Origin: Modicisalibacter xianhensis
Lineage (GTDB): Bacteria; Pseudomonadota; Gammaproteobacteria; Pseudomonadales; Halomonadaceae
Direction: 5' to 3'
DNA: 64,000 nt
NCBI RefSeq assembly: GCF_900113605.1
Contig: NZ_FOPY01000015.1
Location: 62,001-126,000, forward strand
Of the stretch, positions 1 to 23,872 are shown piece by piece. The notes beneath the pieces are model-generated. The model had not been told where the DNA came from, searched no databases, and worked only from the letters and a program-made list of their open reading frames with translations. Positions within the stretch are counted from its first letter, which is position 1, and each line of letters begins with the position of its first letter. A program made the translations under genes and the position numbers.

Positions 1-857
1 ACCGCCACCTCACAGACCAGCCGGTGACGCTCGGCACCCAGGGTGAATTGGCGACGCGCCCGGGTGCGCAGGATCAATTGCGGATGCTCGGTATCGTTTT
101 CTTCCATGGCCTGCACGGCATTGCGCGCCACATTGAGTACCGCCTGGATCAGTTGGGCGTCGTCGCCACGCAGCTCGGGCAGGCTGGGGTCGTAGTCGCG
201 CACGTAGTCCACGCGCGGGTGTTCCGCCTCGAGCAACGCCCGGACACGCTCGAGCACCTGGTGGATGTTGAGCGGCTCGTGATGCACGAGGTTGTTGGGC
301 CCCAGCATACGGTCGACCAGATCGCGCAGCCGGTCGGCTTCCTCGACGATGATGCGGGTAAACTCCGCCAGTTGCGGGTTGGGCAGGTCGCGCTCGAGCA
401 GTTGCGCCGCGCCACGAATACCACCTAGAGGATTCTTGATTTCGTGAGCCAGGCCACGGGACAGTACCTTGATGGTTTCCTGGCGGGCGATCAGCGCTTC
501 CTCGCGGGAAATTCGCATCAGGCGATCGCGTGGCTCGATCTCCAGCAGCAGCTCGTTCTCGTCCAGTGGTGTCACGGTAAAGTCCACCGTGGTTGCCTCG
601 CCACCGGGCAGAATCAGTACCGCTTCGCGCTGGGTAAAAGGATGCTGCTCGCTCAGGGCCTTGCCCAACAGTTCGGCGACGGCGCCGTTCTCACCATCCA
701 GGCTGTCGAGCCTGGTCCCTTGCACGCGGCTCAGGCTAACGGCCAGCAACGCCTCGGCTGCCGGGTTCAACCAGTTCACGCGTAACGCCCCGTCCAGCGT
801 CACTACGGCGGTGGTCAGATGTTCCAGCAAGCGTTGATACATGGCCTTGTTCCGCAT
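1..857 (-). CDS. glnL: Nitrogen sensor histidine kinase NtrB (partial, C-terminus outside window)
   Basis: This is the N-terminal 285 residues of NtrB, the cytoplasmic kinase/phosphatase that controls NtrC in response to the PII protein. Residues 1-110 form a PAS-type sensor region; the phospho-acceptor motif GLAHEIKNPLGG follows with His138, then the dimerisation helices and the start of the ATPase domain. The kinase N, G1 and G2 boxes would lie beyond base 1. The start is the first ATG at 857; a second in-frame ATG is at 842. It sits downstream of glnA and a DUF4124 gene on the same strand, and ntrC would be expected next. The NtrC site at 951-967 lies in its promoter region. Confidence 0.92.
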   Translation of the reverse strand, partial: MRNKAMYQRLLEHLTTAVVTLDGALRVNWLNPAAEALLAVSLSRVQGTRLDSLDGENGAVAELLGKALSEQHPFTQREAVLILPGGEATTVDFTVTPLDENELLLEIEPRDRLMRISREEALIARQETIKVLSRGLAHEIKNPLGGIRGAAQLLERDLPNPQLAEFTRIIVEEADRLRDLVDRMLGPNNLVHHEPLNIHQVLERVRALLEAEHPRVDYVRDYDPSLPELRGDDAQLIQAVLNVARNAVQAMEENDTEHPQLILRTRARRQFTLGAERHRLVCEVA

Positions 858-950
858 AATGGCTTCCCTTCGGATTAGTCATTGCAAGAAGCGCGCCATC
901 TGGAAATGCAGCGTGTTTTACGGGATTGGCGAGATGGCACGCGACCACAA

Positions 951-967
951 TGCACCACGATGGTGCA
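951..967 (-). promoter_or_regulatory. NtrC-binding site upstream of ntrB
   Basis: The sequence TGCACCACGATGGTGCA is an inverted repeat that matches the enteric NtrC consensus (TGCACY-N5-RGTGCA). It lies about 95 bases upstream of the ntrB start and downstream of the DUF4124 gene. In E. coli an NtrC site at the glnL promoter gives repression by NtrC-phosphate; the same autoregulation is inferred here. Confidence 0.8.
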
Positions 968-1043
968 CAAGGAAACTGGCCTTGCCCCACGACGCAACCT
1001 GCGATTCCGCCGCTTGCGACAAAAGCGGGCAGAGCCCGACGGC

Positions 1044-18517: not shown

Positions 18518-21000
18518 TGCCCGGTATCGGCAATACCGGCCTGCTGCGCACCACCTGGCTGACACTGTTCAGCCATTACCGTCGCCACCCCGGCCAGCTC
18601 GCCATGCTGTTGCTCGGTTTATGGGTCGCCAGTGCGTTGTGGAGCGGCGTGCAGGCGATCAATGCCTCGGCCCGCGACAGTTACGCGCGCGCCGAGGCGC
18701 TATTCAGCGCCAGCCTCGACAGTGTCACACGTCGCGACAACCAGCCCCTCTCCCTCGAGGACTACCTGGCGTTGCGCCGCGCCGGCATGCCGGTGTCACC
18801 GCTGGTCGAAGGGGAGCTGTCCCTGAGCGGAGAAACGACCTTACGCGTGATCGGCATCGACCCGCTGACGCTGCCCGGTGAGTCGAGCCTGGCCCGCCAG
18901 CAAAGCGATGCCTCGGCACTGCGCGACTGGATCCTGCCGCCATATCGCGCCCGCATCGCGCCGGAGCAAGCCAAGGCCGCCCGCGACGACCCACGCCTGC
19001 CACCGCTGGAGGCCGATCCCAACCTGCCCCCGGGCACACTGGTCACCGATATCGGCGTGGCTCAGCGCCTGCTTAACGTGGAGACACTGAGCCGGCTGGT
19101 CGTGGCCCCCGGCCGTGCTCTCGACCTGCCACCTTACCTGGTTCGTCAGTTGGCCGCCGCCCTGGCCTCGCCCGGGCAGCTCACCGACAGTTTTCACCTC
19201 AACCTCACCGCCATGGGGTTGCTGGCGCTGATCGTCGGGCTGTTCATCGTGCATGCCGCGCTGGGTCTGGCCCTGGAGCAACGCCTGGGCATGTTGCGCA
19301 CGCTACGCGCCCTGGGCGTGCCGGGTCGCACCCTGGTCATCGCCCTTGCGCTGGAACTGCTGGCGTTCGGCCTGCTCGGCGCCGTGCTGGGCATCGTCAG
19401 CGGTGTCGGGCTGGCGCGCCTGCTGTTGCCCGACGTGGCCGCCAGCCTGGATGCCCTCTACGACACGGATGTGGCCAGCAACCTGGCGCTGCCTTGGTAT
19501 TACTGGCTGGGCGGCCTGGCGGTAACCCTCGGCGGCCTGTTCTCGGCTGGTCTCGGCATGCTGTGGCGGGCTTCGCGTCTCGATATCCTGGCGCTGGGCA
19601 AGGCCCAGGCCTGGCGCGCCCGACTGCACCGGCAGCTCCGCCTGCAGGTCGCGGTCGGCGCTGTCCTGCTGGGTATCGCCGCCTGGCTCGGCTGGCGCCT
19701 GGGCCATCAGCCGGCCCCGCAGGAACTGGCGTTGGGCTTTGCCATGGTCGCCGCGCTGCTGCTGGGTGCGTCACTGTGGTTGCCGTCATTGCTGGCCGGC
19801 GGGCTGGGCCTGCTTTCCCGGCGCCTGCACTCGCGCCCGCACCTGCAGTGGGCGCTGGCCGACCTGCAATTGCAGCTTCCCCGCTTGCAGTTGCCGATGA
19901 TGGCACTGCTGCTGGCACTCTCTGCCAATCTCGGTGTGGGCAGCATGGTCGGTGGGTTTCGCCTGACCTTTCTCGACTGGCTCGATCAGCGCCTGCTGGC
20001 CGATCTGTATGTACGACCCTCGGAGGTGCAACACGCCGATGTCGTCGCCTGGCTGGAAGGCCAGGACGAAGTGCAGGTACTGCTGGAAGCCCGCCACGCC
20101 GAGGCCCCGCTGCTCAATGTCGAGGGGCAGGATACCGGGCGGTCGCTCGCACTGTTCGGCATCACGCCAGCACCGGTGATGCGCCAGTCCTGGCCGCTGC
20201 TCGAAAGCGCGACGGACCGAGAAGCGGCATGGCAGGCACTGGCTGCAGGCGACGCCGTCTTCATCAACGAGCAACTCGCTCGCCGTGACGGACTGGCCCC
20301 CGGCGATACGCTGCGTCTGCGTGGCCCGCAGGGCGTCGTGACGCCGACCATCGCCGCGATCTATCCCGATTACGGTAATCCGCGTGGCGAGGCCGTACTG
20401 CCGGCCTCGCGCCTGGCGGATCAATTTGCCGCACCGCCGGGGTCGCTGGGTGTTGTGCTCAGTCCGCTCCCCTCACGCGACGTAACACGGATCCAGGCAG
20501 CACTTGGCGAACGCTTCGGCCTCTCCGGCGACGCCGTGGTCGACCAGCGTGCCGTGAAGCACACCGCCACCGAGGTCTTCGAGCGCACCTTCGCCATCAC
20601 CCAGGCACTCAACGCCCTGACCCTGGCCGTGGCCGGGCTGGCCCTGCTCACCACCCTGCTGGCCCAGGCCGGGGCACGGCGTGCTCAGTTGGCGCCGCTA
20701 TGGGCATTGGGCGTCTCGCGCCGACAACTGGTCGGGCTACAGTTCGGGCAACTGGTTTCCGCTGCCGCCGGCACCGCCCTGCTGGCCGTTCCGCTGGGCA
20801 TCGGCCTGGCCTGGGCGCTGGTGTCCGTCATCAATGTCGCCGCTTTCGGCTGGCGGCTGCCGCTGCACGTCTTTCCCGGTCAGGTCGCCATGACGATCGT
20901 ACTGGCCGTGGTGGTGGCCGGCCTTGCCGCACTGCTGCCGGCGTGGCGCCTGTGGCGCGTGCCGCCACGCCAGTTGCTACAGGAGTTCGCCGCTGCATGA
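18514..21000 (+). CDS. FtsX-like ABC permease (YbbP-like, 828 residues)
   Basis: A large permease with two FtsX-type four-helix modules and large periplasmic parts. An N-terminal helix (AMLLLGLWVASALW) is followed by a periplasmic domain, helices near residues 230-380, further central helices, a second periplasmic domain and the C-terminal FtsX module (ITQALNALTLAVAGLALLTTLLAQAG onward). It starts at 18514 overlapping the ATPase stop and ends overlapping the AttH-like gene. The gene order matches AttE-F/G-H-like systems in other proteobacteria, with F and G fused into one polypeptide here. Substrate unknown. Confidence 0.85.
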   Translation: MMPGIGNTGLLRTTWLTLFSHYRRHPGQLAMLLLGLWVASALWSGVQAINASARDSYARAEALFSASLDSVTRRDNQPLSLEDYLALRRAGMPVSPLVEGELSLSGETTLRVIGIDPLTLPGESSLARQQSDASALRDWILPPYRARIAPEQAKAARDDPRLPPLEADPNLPPGTLVTDIGVAQRLLNVETLSRLVVAPGRALDLPPYLVRQLAAALASPGQLTDSFHLNLTAMGLLALIVGLFIVHAALGLALEQRLGMLRTLRALGVPGRTLVIALALELLAFGLLGAVLGIVSGVGLARLLLPDVAASLDALYDTDVASNLALPWYYWLGGLAVTLGGLFSAGLGMLWRASRLDILALGKAQAWRARLHRQLRLQVAVGAVLLGIAAWLGWRLGHQPAPQELALGFAMVAALLLGASLWLPSLLAGGLGLLSRRLHSRPHLQWALADLQLQLPRLQLPMMALLLALSANLGVGSMVGGFRLTFLDWLDQRLLADLYVRPSEVQHADVVAWLEGQDEVQVLLEARHAEAPLLNVEGQDTGRSLALFGITPAPVMRQSWPLLESATDREAAWQALAAGDAVFINEQLARRDGLAPGDTLRLRGPQGVVTPTIAAIYPDYGNPRGEAVLPASRLADQFAAPPGSLGVVLSPLPSRDVTRIQAALGERFGLSGDAVVDQRAVKHTATEVFERTFAITQALNALTLAVAGLALLTTLLAQAGARRAQLAPLWALGVSRRQLVGLQFGQLVSAAAGTALLAVPLGIGLAWALVSVINVAAFGWRLPLHVFPGQVAMTIVLAVVVAGLAALLPAWRLWRVPPRQLLQEFAAA

Positions 21001-22127
21001 AACGCTCCACGCTGCTGTTGCTGCTGGCATTAGTGATCGTGGCCGGCCTCGCCAAGGTGTACTGGCCGACCGACGCATCGACGCAAGCCGGTTACGCCGG
21101 CCTCGGTGAACAGGCGAGCGGTTTTGCCCAGGCAGGGCCTGGCCAGACGCTGCACTTTCCCGAGGATCATGGCCCGCATCCCGACTATCGCATCGAGTGG
21201 TGGTATCTGACCGCCAATCTGGAAAGTGCCGATGGGCGCCCGTTCGGCGTGCAGTGGACCCTGTTTCGCCAGGCGCTGGCACCCAAGGCAGGCAACCGCG
21301 AAGCGTCCGGCGCTTCGCCTTGGCAGGACAGGCAGCTGTGGATGGCGCATGCCGCCGTCTCGACGCCGCAGGGGCACCGCTTCGCCGAGAAGTTCGCGCG
21401 CGGCATGGCCCTGCCCGCCGGCCAGGGGCAGGCCGGCGTGACGGCGGCCCCGTTTGCCGCCTGGATCGATGACTGGACCCTGATCGCCGAGGAGGCCGAG
21501 TCGGGCCTCGACCGGTTGACGGTCCACGCCCAGGCCGACGATTTCGCCTACCGTCTTGCGCTGACCGCCCAAGGCCCCCTGGTTCGCCATGGCGAGGGCG
21601 GCTTCAGTCAGAAGTCCGCCGATGGCCAGGGCTCGATGTACTACAGTCAGCCGTTCTATCGGGTCGAGGGCACGCTTCGCCTCGATGGCGAGCCGCTCAG
21701 TGTGACGGGCCGGGCCTGGCTGGACCGCGAATGGAGCAGCCAGTTGCTGGGCAGGGCCCAACATGGCTGGGACTGGTTCTCGCTGCACCTGGGCAATGGC
21801 GCCAAGCTGATGGCTTTCCGCCTGCGCGGCGGCGGTGAAGATGATACAGAAGACTACTTGTCCGGTAGCTGGATCACGCCCCAAGGCGAAGTCTCAGCGC
21901 TGGCCAAAGGCGGTCTGCGCCTGACACCTGTCGAGACACGTGACGTGGCCGGCCGGGAATTGCCGACGACGTGGCGTGTCGAGGTTCCCGACCGGCGCCT
22001 CGATGTTACCGTCAGCGCGATCCACCCCGACCAGTGGATGGGAACCTCGTTTCCCTACTGGGAAGGCATGGTCACGGTACGAGGCAGCCACACCGGCAAG
22101 GGCTATCTGGAAATGACCGGGTATTGA
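20997..22127 (+). CDS. Secreted AttH/CrtC-like lipocalin-fold protein
   Basis: A 376-residue protein with an N-terminal signal or membrane anchor (MKRSTLLLLLALVIVAGLA) and the AttH/CrtC motif set: FPEDHGPHPDYRIEWWYLTANL near residue 55 and RAWLDREWSSQLL near 240. The family is often annotated carotenoid 1,2-hydratase, but AttH-type members beside ABC genes are not known to act on carotenoids, and no carotenoid genes are near. The ATG overlaps the permease stop (ATGA). It is likely the periplasmic partner of the ABC system. Confidence 0.82.
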   Translation: MKRSTLLLLLALVIVAGLAKVYWPTDASTQAGYAGLGEQASGFAQAGPGQTLHFPEDHGPHPDYRIEWWYLTANLESADGRPFGVQWTLFRQALAPKAGNREASGASPWQDRQLWMAHAAVSTPQGHRFAEKFARGMALPAGQGQAGVTAAPFAAWIDDWTLIAEEAESGLDRLTVHAQADDFAYRLALTAQGPLVRHGEGGFSQKSADGQGSMYYSQPFYRVEGTLRLDGEPLSVTGRAWLDREWSSQLLGRAQHGWDWFSLHLGNGAKLMAFRLRGGGEDDTEDYLSGSWITPQGEVSALAKGGLRLTPVETRDVAGRELPTTWRVEVPDRRLDVTVSAIHPDQWMGTSFPYWEGMVTVRGSHTGKGYLEMTGY

Positions 22128-22145
22128 CCCCGTGCGCAAAGAATT

Positions 22146-22174
22146 TTCAAAAAGTTTAACCAGGTTAATTTAAT
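22146..22174 (+). promoter_or_regulatory. Promoter of the CsrB-like RNA
   Basis: TTCAAA (22146-22151) and TTTAAT (22169-22174) are separated by exactly 17 bases, so transcription should start near 22181. No GacA box (TGTAAG-N-CTTACA) was found upstream. Confidence 0.5.
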
Positions 22175-22180
22175 TGGCGC

Positions 22181-22335
22181 CTAAGCTTGAGACCATGCGC
22201 GCCATCGAGCAGGGAGGCTCGACAGGGAAGACCGAGCACACGGAAGGCTCACCAACCAAGGATGCATGGGCAGGATGCCCGTGATGATGCAGGGAACAGC
22301 AACGCTAGCAGCCCGGCCGTCAGGCCGGGCTTTTT
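22181..22335 (+). ncRNA. CsrB/RsmZ-type small RNA (CsrA antagonist), predicted
   Basis: About 155 bases without a credible ORF, between a sigma-70-like promoter and a strong terminator. Six GGA motifs fall within 83 bases (22213, 22226, 22242, 22260, 22273, 22293). Two sit in the loops of clear hairpins: TCGAGC/GCTCGA (22205-22210 with 22217-22222) around AGGGAG, and CATGGGC (22265-22271) pairing with GCCCGTG (22277-22283, one G-U) around AGGAT. A third lies in a weaker 4-bp hairpin (22234-22250). Repeated GGA in hairpin loops is the hallmark of RNAs that sequester CsrA/RsmA. The exact 5' end is inferred. Confidence 0.7.
22310..22335 (+). terminator. Terminator of the CsrB-like RNA
   Basis: AGCCCGGCC (22310-22318) pairs perfectly with GGCCGGGCT (22323-22331) across GTCA, then TTTTT. 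It ends three bases before the stop of the convergent regulator gene. Confidence 0.9.
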
Positions 22336-22338
22336 GTA

Positions 22339-23163
22339 TTACAGATTCAGGGTTTCTTCAGACAAATGCATATACCGGGGATCGAAGTCACCAAACGCCT
22401 TCAATCCTTCCCAATCCAGTATGGTCAGTAACTTGTTGTCGTAACTGATCAATCCATCGCTACGCAGCTTCTGCATCACCCGGTTGGTATGCACCACGGT
22501 GATTCCCATGGCATCGGCCAGGTCTTGCTGGACCAGAGGGAAGTCGATGCAATTGGTTCGCGTCAGCCCAGCGGCCCGGTGGCGCATCTGCAATTCGCAG
22601 AGCAGATGCGCCAGCCGCTTGTCGGCCGGCCGGCCGGTATTGTTGACGAACCACTCGCGTTGCACGGATTCCTCGACCAACGACGCCCAGAACAGCGCGT
22701 AGGCCAGTGAGATGTTGTTCTCGAAGATATGGTTGACCGTCTCGCGGGAAATCAGAGCAAAGCTGGCCGGCGTCAGCGTACTGACGGCATGATCCATGTG
22801 ATCGAGCAGCGCGATATGTACATCGCACACGTCTCCGGGAATGAGGTAGCCCAAAATGGCCCGCCGCCCGTCGGCCAGGTACTTGTAGCGGCAGGCCCAG
22901 CCGTCGATGACGATATGCACGTAATCGGGCCGTTCATTCTCGCAGATGACGTCCTTGCCCTTGCCGACCCTCACTTCACGCACGATCGACTCGCGGAACT
23001 GCAGCTGGTCTGCCTCGGCCAGCTCCATGAAATTACCCAGCCGAAAGAGCAGCGGATCGATCGCGTGGGCGCCTGCCTTTCGAATACCGGCACCGCCATG
23101 GCTCGTTTCCGTCCCGGGCGCCATCAGCTTGTCCCGCTTATGAATCCGACGCGTCATCGGCAT
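22339..23163 (-). CDS. Crp/Fnr-family transcriptional regulator
   Basis: A 274-residue regulator with a cyclic-nucleotide-type sensor barrel (about residues 45-165) and a C-terminal winged helix (DLADAMGITVVHTNRVMQKLRSDGLI). It lacks the N-terminal Cys cluster of FNR and the usual cAMP-binding residues are not evident, so the signal is unknown. The start is set at 23163 (MPMTRR) with GGGAG upstream; ATG 23157 is nearly as good. Its 5' end overlaps the 3' end of the DUF1264 gene by about 25 bases, so translation is probably coupled. Confidence 0.88.
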   Translation of the reverse strand: MPMTRRIHKRDKLMAPGTETSHGGAGIRKAGAHAIDPLLFRLGNFMELAEADQLQFRESIVREVRVGKGKDVICENERPDYVHIVIDGWACRYKYLADGRRAILGYLIPGDVCDVHIALLDHMDHAVSTLTPASFALISRETVNHIFENNISLAYALFWASLVEESVQREWFVNNTGRPADKRLAHLLCELQMRHRAAGLTRTNCIDFPLVQQDLADAMGITVVHTNRVMQKLRSDGLISYDNKLLTILDWEGLKAFGDFDPRYMHLSEETLNL

Positions 23164-23872
23164 CCTCGACTCCCGGCTGTGGCTCTGTGTGGCTGAACGC
23201 ATTGGCCAAGGCATTTACCCCGCGCTGGGGATGCGCTAACTCCACATAAGTCTGGCGGTCGCGGGCCTTCTTGTCGATATCGACCTGCATGGCCTGATTG
23301 CGATTGCGCTTGAGCGTCTCGTCGCACTCCCCCTGGCGATTGAACGACCACATCAGCCTGGCCTCGCCCATGGGCAGGGAATCGCCGGGCTCGCCATCAT
23401 GGCGACCGGTATGCCAGGTGTGCCATGTCTTGCCGTAGCTGTTCACCAGCCGCTTCATGAACGCCTTTTCGGCGGCCTCGGGTAACCCTGGAGCAATCAA
23501 CTCGCCTGAGAACACTTCGTAGTTATGGGGGTGCCAGTAGGCCTGCTCTTCCTCCGGCAAGGTCTCGAACAGCGCCTCGGAAATGATGTATTCGAGCCCG
23601 ATCAGGTTGGCATCGGGAGTATTGCCATCGAATATCAGGCACTGCAGAAAGTCGTCGTTGACCACCTTGCAATAGTGGTGAGCCTCCATCTGCATCTGCG
23701 GATCGCACTTGGCACAATGAAAACCGACGACATAGGCATCGAAGCCTTTCATTGGCGTCTTGTCCTGAAGCAGTCTGGCCCCCTGCTCGAGCACGGTCAG
23801 CCAGGCGCCCTTGCTTTCTCCGGGGGGATGCACCGGGCTATGGCGCCGATTGACGGTCGGTCTGTGTTTCAT
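23138..23872 (-). CDS. DUF1264 (OBAP-like) protein
   Basis: A 244-residue protein of the DUF1264 family, known in plants as oil-body-associated protein and common but uncharacterised in bacteria. The conserved core is residues 50-150 with FHCAKCDPQMQMEAHHYC, CLIFDGNTPDANLIGLEYI and WHPHNYEVFSGELIAPGLP; the His/Cys-rich first block could bind metal. No signal peptide. The start at 23872 has an ideal AAGGAGG. It is followed, with overlap, by a Crp/Fnr regulator. Confidence 0.85.
   Translation of the reverse strand: MKHRPTVNRRHSPVHPPGESKGAWLTVLEQGARLLQDKTPMKGFDAYVVGFHCAKCDPQMQMEAHHYCKVVNDDFLQCLIFDGNTPDANLIGLEYIISEALFETLPEEEQAYWHPHNYEVFSGELIAPGLPEAAEKAFMKRLVNSYGKTWHTWHTGRHDGEPGDSLPMGEARLMWSFNRQGECDETLKRNRNQAMQVDIDKKARDRQTYVELAHPQRGVNALANAFSHTEPQPGVEDADDASDS

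Follow-up and report, generated by a model that had tools for sequence, protein, structure and literature searches.

The intergenic DNA at positions 22204 to 22336 of the window, by which we mean the whole stretch of 64,000 nucleotides analyzed here, very probably encodes a regulatory RNA of about 133 nt that works like CsrB and RsmZ, as a sponge for CsrA. A CsrB/RsmZ-type RNA had already been called at this place in a preliminary description made from the letters alone, and the call is now supported by the conservation of GGA-bearing hairpins, by covariation, by csrA genes and a GacA-family match in the host, and by GacA-type boxes upstream of sister copies. The RNA belongs to a halomonad family that is apparently undescribed. 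The coordinates of its elements and of related features are collected in Table 1.

Table 1. Elements of the predicted RNA gene, its convergent neighbor, and family matches on plasmid pIGAnt2
Feature	Position	Strand	Details
Predicted CsrA-sponge RNA	22204..22336	+	About 133 nt, intergenic; covariance model match 22204-22337
Palindrome TTAACC-A-GGTTAA	22156..22168	+	Perfect inverted repeat, near -41.5
Inferred -10 hexamer GACCAT	22191..22196	+	From 52 aligned copies; both key positions conserved at 85% (A and T, respectively)
Hairpin 1, TCGAGC-AGGGAG-GCTCGA, loop GGA	22205..22222	+	Perfect 6-nt inverted repeat; present in minimum free energy fold
Linker GGA (CAGGGAAG)	22226..22228	+	Sequence; LsLsLs pattern
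Hairpin 2, GAGC-ACACGGAAG-GCTC, loop GGA	22234..22250	+	Script and fold; 4 bp
Linker GGA (CCAAGGATG)	22260..22262	+	Sequence; all three columns invariant in alignment A1
Hairpin 3, CATGGGC-AGGAT-GCCCGTG, loop GGA	22265..22283	+	Fold; 7 bp
Linker GGA (CAGGGAAC), ahead of terminator	22293..22295	+	Sequence
Intrinsic terminator, 9-bp stem and T run	22310..22335	+	Terminator scan; stem 22310-22331, then TTTT
Crp/Fnr-type regulator gene, convergent with RNA gene	22339..23214	-	PF13545 67.1 bits, PF00027 44.3 bits, both above cut-off
pIGAnt2 R1 match	391-548		65.1 bits
pIGAnt2 R1 match	664-802		110.5 bits
pIGAnt2 R1 match	917-1037		44.7 bits

The gap that houses the RNA gene measures 211 nt, from the stop of a co-directional open reading frame (ORF; 20700-22127), which lies 76 nt before the RNA start, to the convergent regulator gene. 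Six GGA motifs (at 22213, 22226, 22242, 22260, 22273, and 22293) fall within 83 nt, as had been claimed, and their order is loop-linker-loop-linker-loop-linker (LsLsLs), with three hairpin loops. The two loop hairpins described earlier, of 6 bp around AGGGAG (hairpin 1) and 7 bp around AGGAT (hairpin 3), are both present, the former as a perfect inverted repeat and the latter in sequence and fold, but the 4-bp hairpin 2 between them had been overlooked; the terminator, also part of that description, was recovered by our scan. The fold of positions 22204 to 22337 (134 nt) surpasses those of dinucleotide shuffles (z = -2.79, 0 of 200 as good), as does that of a slightly longer piece, 22193 to 22336 (z = -2.31, 2 of 200 as good). 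The number of GGA alone is ordinary: 6 were observed vs 4.4 in dinucleotide shuffles (p = 0.23), which led us to reject the GGA count as stand-alone evidence, and the window, its two strands taken together, has eight clusters as dense as this (six GGA within 83 nt), the RNA gene's own included. The case for the RNA rests on comparison, and it is conservation that raises the predicted RNA above chance.

By blastn, the stretch matches seven places in its own genome at E ≤0.001, itself included, and a sample of 58 genomes of relatives (own included) contains 17 with a match at E ≤0.01, which in some of the 17 covers just the terminator or short pieces of unrelated sequence. Two congeners have an ortholog at the same locus, with the same Crp/Fnr neighbor and 83% identity; both orthologs keep all six GGA, their indels are non-triplet, and compensatory changes are present. 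Twenty-seven copies were picked, one was dropped for a mis-called terminator, and the MAFFT alignment of the remaining 26 (alignment A1), with 20 pairs, was used to build a covariance model, R1. Applied to the own genome, R1 recovers 14 matches at E ≤2.7e-14, 7 of them in the training alignment and 7 not, after which comes a gap to 2e-8; the window copy, which is in the training set, scores 120.3 bits (E = 1.3e-34), and two of the 14 copies appear degraded, with 3 and 5 GGA. The mean pairwise identity of own-genome copies is 62% (range, 49 to 91%; 13 copies, one having no separate row), and most of them are therefore not recent duplicates. Below the gap, several R1 matches are antisense or rest on the terminator; GGA-rich candidates also lie there, at C28:148165 (8 GGA), C30:124635 (6 GGA), C30:227902 (5 GGA), C21:58203, and C25:52174.

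The family is widespread in the Halomonadaceae, with R1 matches in 137 of 201 genomes at E ≤0.01 and in 105 of the 201 at E ≤1e-10; copy counts per genome in this run are lower bounds, 16 candidates having been scored in each genome. A sample of 14 genomes of the genus yielded 72 matches at E ≤4e-12, with 14 in the own genome, 13 in G001, 19 in G005 (two overlapping pairs included), 7 in G009, 6 or fewer in seven genomes, and none in three; since counts run from 19 to none, a high copy number is not common to the whole genus. At the level of the order, 58 of 194 sampled genomes, some of which are Halomonadaceae, contain an R1 match at E ≤0.01; outside the Halomonadaceae, no R1 match in this sample is better than 2.5e-6.

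Covarying pairs and the non-triplet indels among orthologs point to the conservation of structure rather than of coding sequence. Changes on both sides of a pair are found in 11 of the 20 predicted pairs of the 26-copy MAFFT alignment. A second alignment, of 116 matches (87 distinct rows), was fitted to the R1 structure, which favors covariation; there, both-side changes are seen in 19 of 20 pairs, the share of paired cells is 96.5%, and 0 of 500 shuffles have covariation as high, while sliding the partners by one column lowers the share of paired cells to 43 to 49%. Hairpins 2 and 3 of the window copy correspond to covarying helices 1 and 2 of alignment A2 (both-side changes in 4/4 and 7/7 pairs, respectively) and the terminator stem corresponds to helix 3 (8/9 pairs). 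Neither alignment registers hairpin 1 across copies, so hairpin 1 is unpaired in R1 and was counted by an independent script. Over 86 copies, hand-picked from the 116 matches by counting overlapping loci once and dropping one antisense match, this script placed 244 of 580 GGA (42%) in the loops of hairpins of at least 4 bp, compared with 12% for dinucleotide shuffles; in 66 of the 86 copies, a loop of this kind holds the first GGA, with 44 different stems among them. Conservation of the GGA hairpins in relatives, to which the preliminary description had tied the fate of its call, is thus borne out. These data also bear on whether the locus encodes a base-pairing (Hfq-type) small RNA, or an RNA derived from a 3' untranslated region, in which the richness in GGA would be incidental. 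We regard this as improbable: an intrinsic terminator, an unexceptional number of GGA, and the short distance of 76 nt that separates the start from the co-directional ORF before it would all suit it, but the placement of GGA in loops and linkers is kept while the stems change, whereas a pairing seed would persist as sequence, and the copies adjoin different genes and have promoter elements of their own.

Upstream of the copies, we searched for the GacA box TGTAAGNNATNNCTTACA, as worded in an excerpt of PMC9911603, with a threshold of at least 11 of its 14 positions. Such a box precedes 40 of the 86 copies vs 0.7% of base-composition shuffles, and it ends 54 to 56 nt before the RNA in 26 of these 40, 76 to 80 nt before it in 13, and 70 nt before it in one, the two preferred positions being about two helical turns apart. 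Among the copies with the box at 76 to 80 nt, such as L078, L079, and L003, several promoters appear by eye to have two GacA-type boxes 22 bp apart, again about two helical turns, the downstream one being degenerate. The own genome contains 13 GacA-box sites with at most 2 mismatches, five of them just upstream of copies, and its sole perfect box is upstream of a sponge copy; with up to 3 mismatches, the count is 59 vs 49 for a reversed control, and only the best sites cluster at copies. At the window copy, the best match reaches 8 of 14 positions, and 9 is reached at each of the two orthologs, so the earlier statement that no GacA box is visible was correct for this copy.

Additional GacA-box sites were rejected as pointers to further copies; nine were inspected, together with the place C25:52174. 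C25:52174 and C37:142890 each precede a GGA-rich stretch, a candidate RNA, the site C23:107632 has five GGA but looks coding-like by eye, and the rest have at most 4 GGA. At L177 (G000:C37:142500-143300), a palindromic GacA-like box precedes a GGA-rich stretch that adjoins a frame which we take to be enolase-like; this stretch may encode yet another sponge RNA, so diverged that R1 barely recognizes it.

A second element, TAACC-NN-GGTTA (spacer of 1 to 3), matches at 8 or more of 10 positions in 57 of the 86 copies vs 14.5% of shuffles and ends 33 to 37 nt before the RNA in 49 of the 57. The window copy carries it as a palindrome one base shorter than the usual spacing. When 52 copies were aligned, of which 50 were chosen for the second element and two were placed by hand, a -10-like hexamer appeared 23 nt after the element, and its position puts the start of transcription near that of the model (22203/22204) and centers the second element near -41.5. 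The start so placed lies about 20 nt downstream of the 22181 given earlier. At the window RNA gene, then, the terminator is found and a consensus sigma-70 promoter is not, whereas a comparative -10 and an upstream element are present: the sigma-70-like promoter of the preliminary description was absent from a consensus scan of 22000 to 22450. TTTCAA-N17-TTTAAT, presumably the sequence then meant, is a less likely promoter, as it overlaps the conserved palindrome and the -10 lies about 23 nt after the palindrome; it was probably placed some 20 nt too far upstream.

Candidate partners of the RNA are encoded in the host. csrA was found in all 29 genomes examined, the own genome included, which has two (PF02599 matches above cut-off). 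A GacA-family match at G000:C21:313478 scores 290 bits for a curated cut-off of 280, and such a match above cut-off exists in 13 of 15 genomes examined. The second csrA is divergent to the copy C28:327897 and about 160 nt from it (L123 3010-3540, G000:C28:327509-328039), with a GacA-type box between the two, and two csrA genes in G001 and G005 have a copy no more than 0.8 kb away.

Some copies lie on mobile DNA. The Halomonas plasmid pIGAnt2 (NZ_KP228014.1, 6,811 bp; L170) has three R1 matches in tandem between positions 391 and 1037; its gene table is silent on how these copies are annotated because it lists zero RNA genes. An annotated hypothetical coding sequence of this plasmid (573-857, minus strand) overlaps one of the sponge-like RNAs and may be spurious. 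Two own-genome copies are on a contig of 22.5 kb, next to an ORF that is presumably resolvase-like. No match to the window copy was found among plasmid and phage sequences, nor to the C28:66894 copy among plasmid sequences. The many copies per genome, those on the 22.5-kb contig with their supposedly resolvase-like neighbor, and the tandem array on pIGAnt2 would be in line with an RNA of no regulatory function that belongs to a dispersed repeat or a mobile element, but we give this little credence, less than a base-pairing RNA: the own-genome copies have diverged (mean identity of 62% over 13) with promoters and compensatory pairs kept, and an inert repeat would not be expected to show selection on structure. 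Least probable of all is that the stretch is no more than the upstream gene's 3' region with its terminator, with chance GGA and no separate RNA, which the eight GGA clusters on the two window strands and the empty consensus promoter scan would allow but which is already contradicted by conservation, namely, the six other blastn places in the own genome, the covariance model matches, the covariation, and the promoter elements at fixed distance.

The regulator gene beside the RNA gene is not an isolated case. Of the 72 genus copies, 21, the window copy included, have an HTH_Crp_2 gene no more than 1 kb away vs 0.49 expected from the number of such genes (119 that score 46 bits or more, weaker matches having been dropped); independent adjacency events are fewer than 21 because orthologous loci were counted once per genome, and the own genome has four separate Crp-adjacent loci (C31, C28, C30, and C21). 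The recognition helix reads V-H-x-N/S-R in most of the Crp/Fnr proteins inspected and P-E-T-M-S-R in two. V-H-x-N/S-R does not mark the neighbors, since it is shared by several proteins with no copy within 3 kb (for example, L150, L153, and L166). In its half-site spacing, the palindrome agrees with Crp/Fnr boxes already known, the PrfA box among them. A search of the sequences that precede 22 Crp/Fnr ORFs found it three times at 9 of 10 positions vs 0.2 expected (0.8% of shuffles); two of the three are the neighboring copies' own boxes, located inside the stretch searched, and one remains. Genome-wide, the palindrome is not enriched, with 47 sites at no more than 1 mismatch vs 64 for the reversed pattern. 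The link between Crp/Fnr regulators and sponge copies, which rests on adjacency and position, is circumstantial and should be viewed as a lead.

Other neighbors of the copies deserve mention. At L121 (5249-8341, G000:C30), a stretch of 3.1 kb contains four sponge copies, interleaved with one Crp/Fnr gene and one SRAP-like gene, and a second SRAP-like gene is located just upstream of the cluster. We take the SRAP-like gene to be YedK-like and the pair of genes just upstream to be umuDC-like, and genes that we likewise assume to be umuDC-like recur no more than 1.5 kb from copies in several of the genomes (L033, L079, L080, L088, L141, and L142); sponge copies may thus be linked to cassettes for SOS mutagenesis. 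L052 and L053 (G000:C30:227902 and C16:122385) are two mutually similar GGA-bearing RNAs whose layout is unlike that of the main family, and the RNA at C16:122385 starts 183 nt past a Crp/Fnr HTH stretch. Guanidine-II riboswitches (RF01068, above cut-off) are found no more than about 0.5 kb from copies in L074 (525-574) and L078 (1834-1884).

If the window RNA is a CsrA sponge, as we favor, its mechanism is most likely the titration of CsrA: CsrA dimers would each engage two GGA sites of the RNA, free CsrA would fall when the RNA is made, and CsrA-controlled mRNAs would in turn be released or destabilized. The RNA would be one of about 14 paralogous sponges in its genome. The window copy and its two orthologs, which have no GacA box, probably respond to a different activator, one that acts at TTAACC-N-GGTTAA near -41.5 and is possibly of the Crp/Fnr type, for example, the protein encoded next door. 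A broader scheme can be put forward tentatively, as one that we ourselves consider rather doubtful: some Halomonadaceae would possess an expanded sponge system in which a dozen or more paralogs split the inputs, some driven by GacA boxes and others connected through the -41.5 palindrome to adjacent Crp/Fnr regulators, and in which copies travel with csrA paralogs and on small plasmids such as pIGAnt2, whose tandem sponges would lower the free CsrA of the host. With CsrA proteins numbering two or three, one can ask what need a cell has for more than a dozen sponges so alike, and the second element suggests a non-GacA input, of the Crp/Fnr type, into CsrA control.

No Rfam family was found in the window at gathering scores, and none of the Csr/Rsm families reached its cut-off on 20 loci with sister copies. 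In the covariance-model check proposed in the preliminary description, PrrB_RsmZ (RF00166) scored 18.6 bits at the window RNA vs a gathering score of 44, and it exceeded its cut-off in 0 of 14 congeneric genomes. CC0196 and CRISPR-DR9, returned by a permissive Rfam search of the region, were rejected since both rest on the terminator stem. Subthreshold RF00166 matches of 23 to 28 bits occur at G006:C9:98257, G001:C11:1210173, and G010:C17:45234 (L173 to L175), where R1 scores 12 bits on the first and nothing at the other two; these loci are possibly a second type of Rsm RNA and possibly due to chance. As far as its sequence tells, the predicted window RNA is outside the Rfam RsmZ family, and the window copy is no GacA-box Rsm gene. 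Excerpts of the open-access literature on CsrA and small RNAs of Halomonas, on RsmX/Y/Z, on GacS/GacA, and on the GGA motif yielded no description of the family, and the available portions of PMC7366521, PMC12889724, PMC13414033, PMC9049629, and PMC4187203 do not describe its RNAs. A table in the excerpted 2020 review lists GacS-GacA for Halomonas anticariensis, with CsrA in brackets and the sponge RNA as "Unknown" (PMC7366521), an entry that the halomonad family is a candidate to fill. What appears to be new is the RNA family, its copy number, the second promoter element, and carriage on a plasmid; the kind of RNA, that of CsrB and RsmZ, is known.

The halomonad RNA resembles RsmX, RsmY, and RsmZ of Pseudomonas, which likewise have GGA in hairpin loops, and RsmZ1-7 and RsmY of Azotobacter vinelandii in being a short RNA with repeated GGA and paralogs in one genome; with RsmX/Y/Z it further shares the GacA-type box TGTAAGNNATNNCTTACA, here on sister copies. 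Unlike RsmX/Y/Z, it falls below the Rfam cut-off for RsmZ, reaches 14 or more copies in one genome, has no GacA box at the window copy, and displays a second palindromic promoter element and frequent Crp/Fnr neighbors. According to excerpts of the respective articles, A. vinelandii has RsmZ1-7 and RsmY (PMC4824345, PMC9049629), or RsmY1-2 in another account (PMC7366521), and P. syringae has up to seven such RNAs per genome (PMC7911923); within the open-access excerpts searched, no other genome has as many copies of CsrA sponges as the halomonad set. Compared by description only, the window copy is akin to RsmV and RsmW of Pseudomonas aeruginosa, sequestering RNAs transcribed independently of GacS-GacA, in the independence that we infer for it; RsmV and RsmW are seemingly specific to P. 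aeruginosa and probably of independent origin, as stated in part of PMC7366521. Also by description, in an excerpt of PMC5864184, Aln1a-c of Alteromonas are three CsrB/RsmZ-like RNAs of a marine gammaproteobacterium with a CsrA homolog, and all three are in one intergenic region, unlike the halomonad copies. Finally, pIGAnt2 recalls RsmQ, a CsrA-type (Rsm) protein encoded on a plasmid (excerpt of PMC9928087), in that a plasmid would act on the Csr/Rsm system of its host; unlike RsmQ, it has apparent antagonist RNAs rather than a protein, so that sponge RNAs on a small plasmid would be the mirror image of plasmid-encoded CsrA-type proteins.
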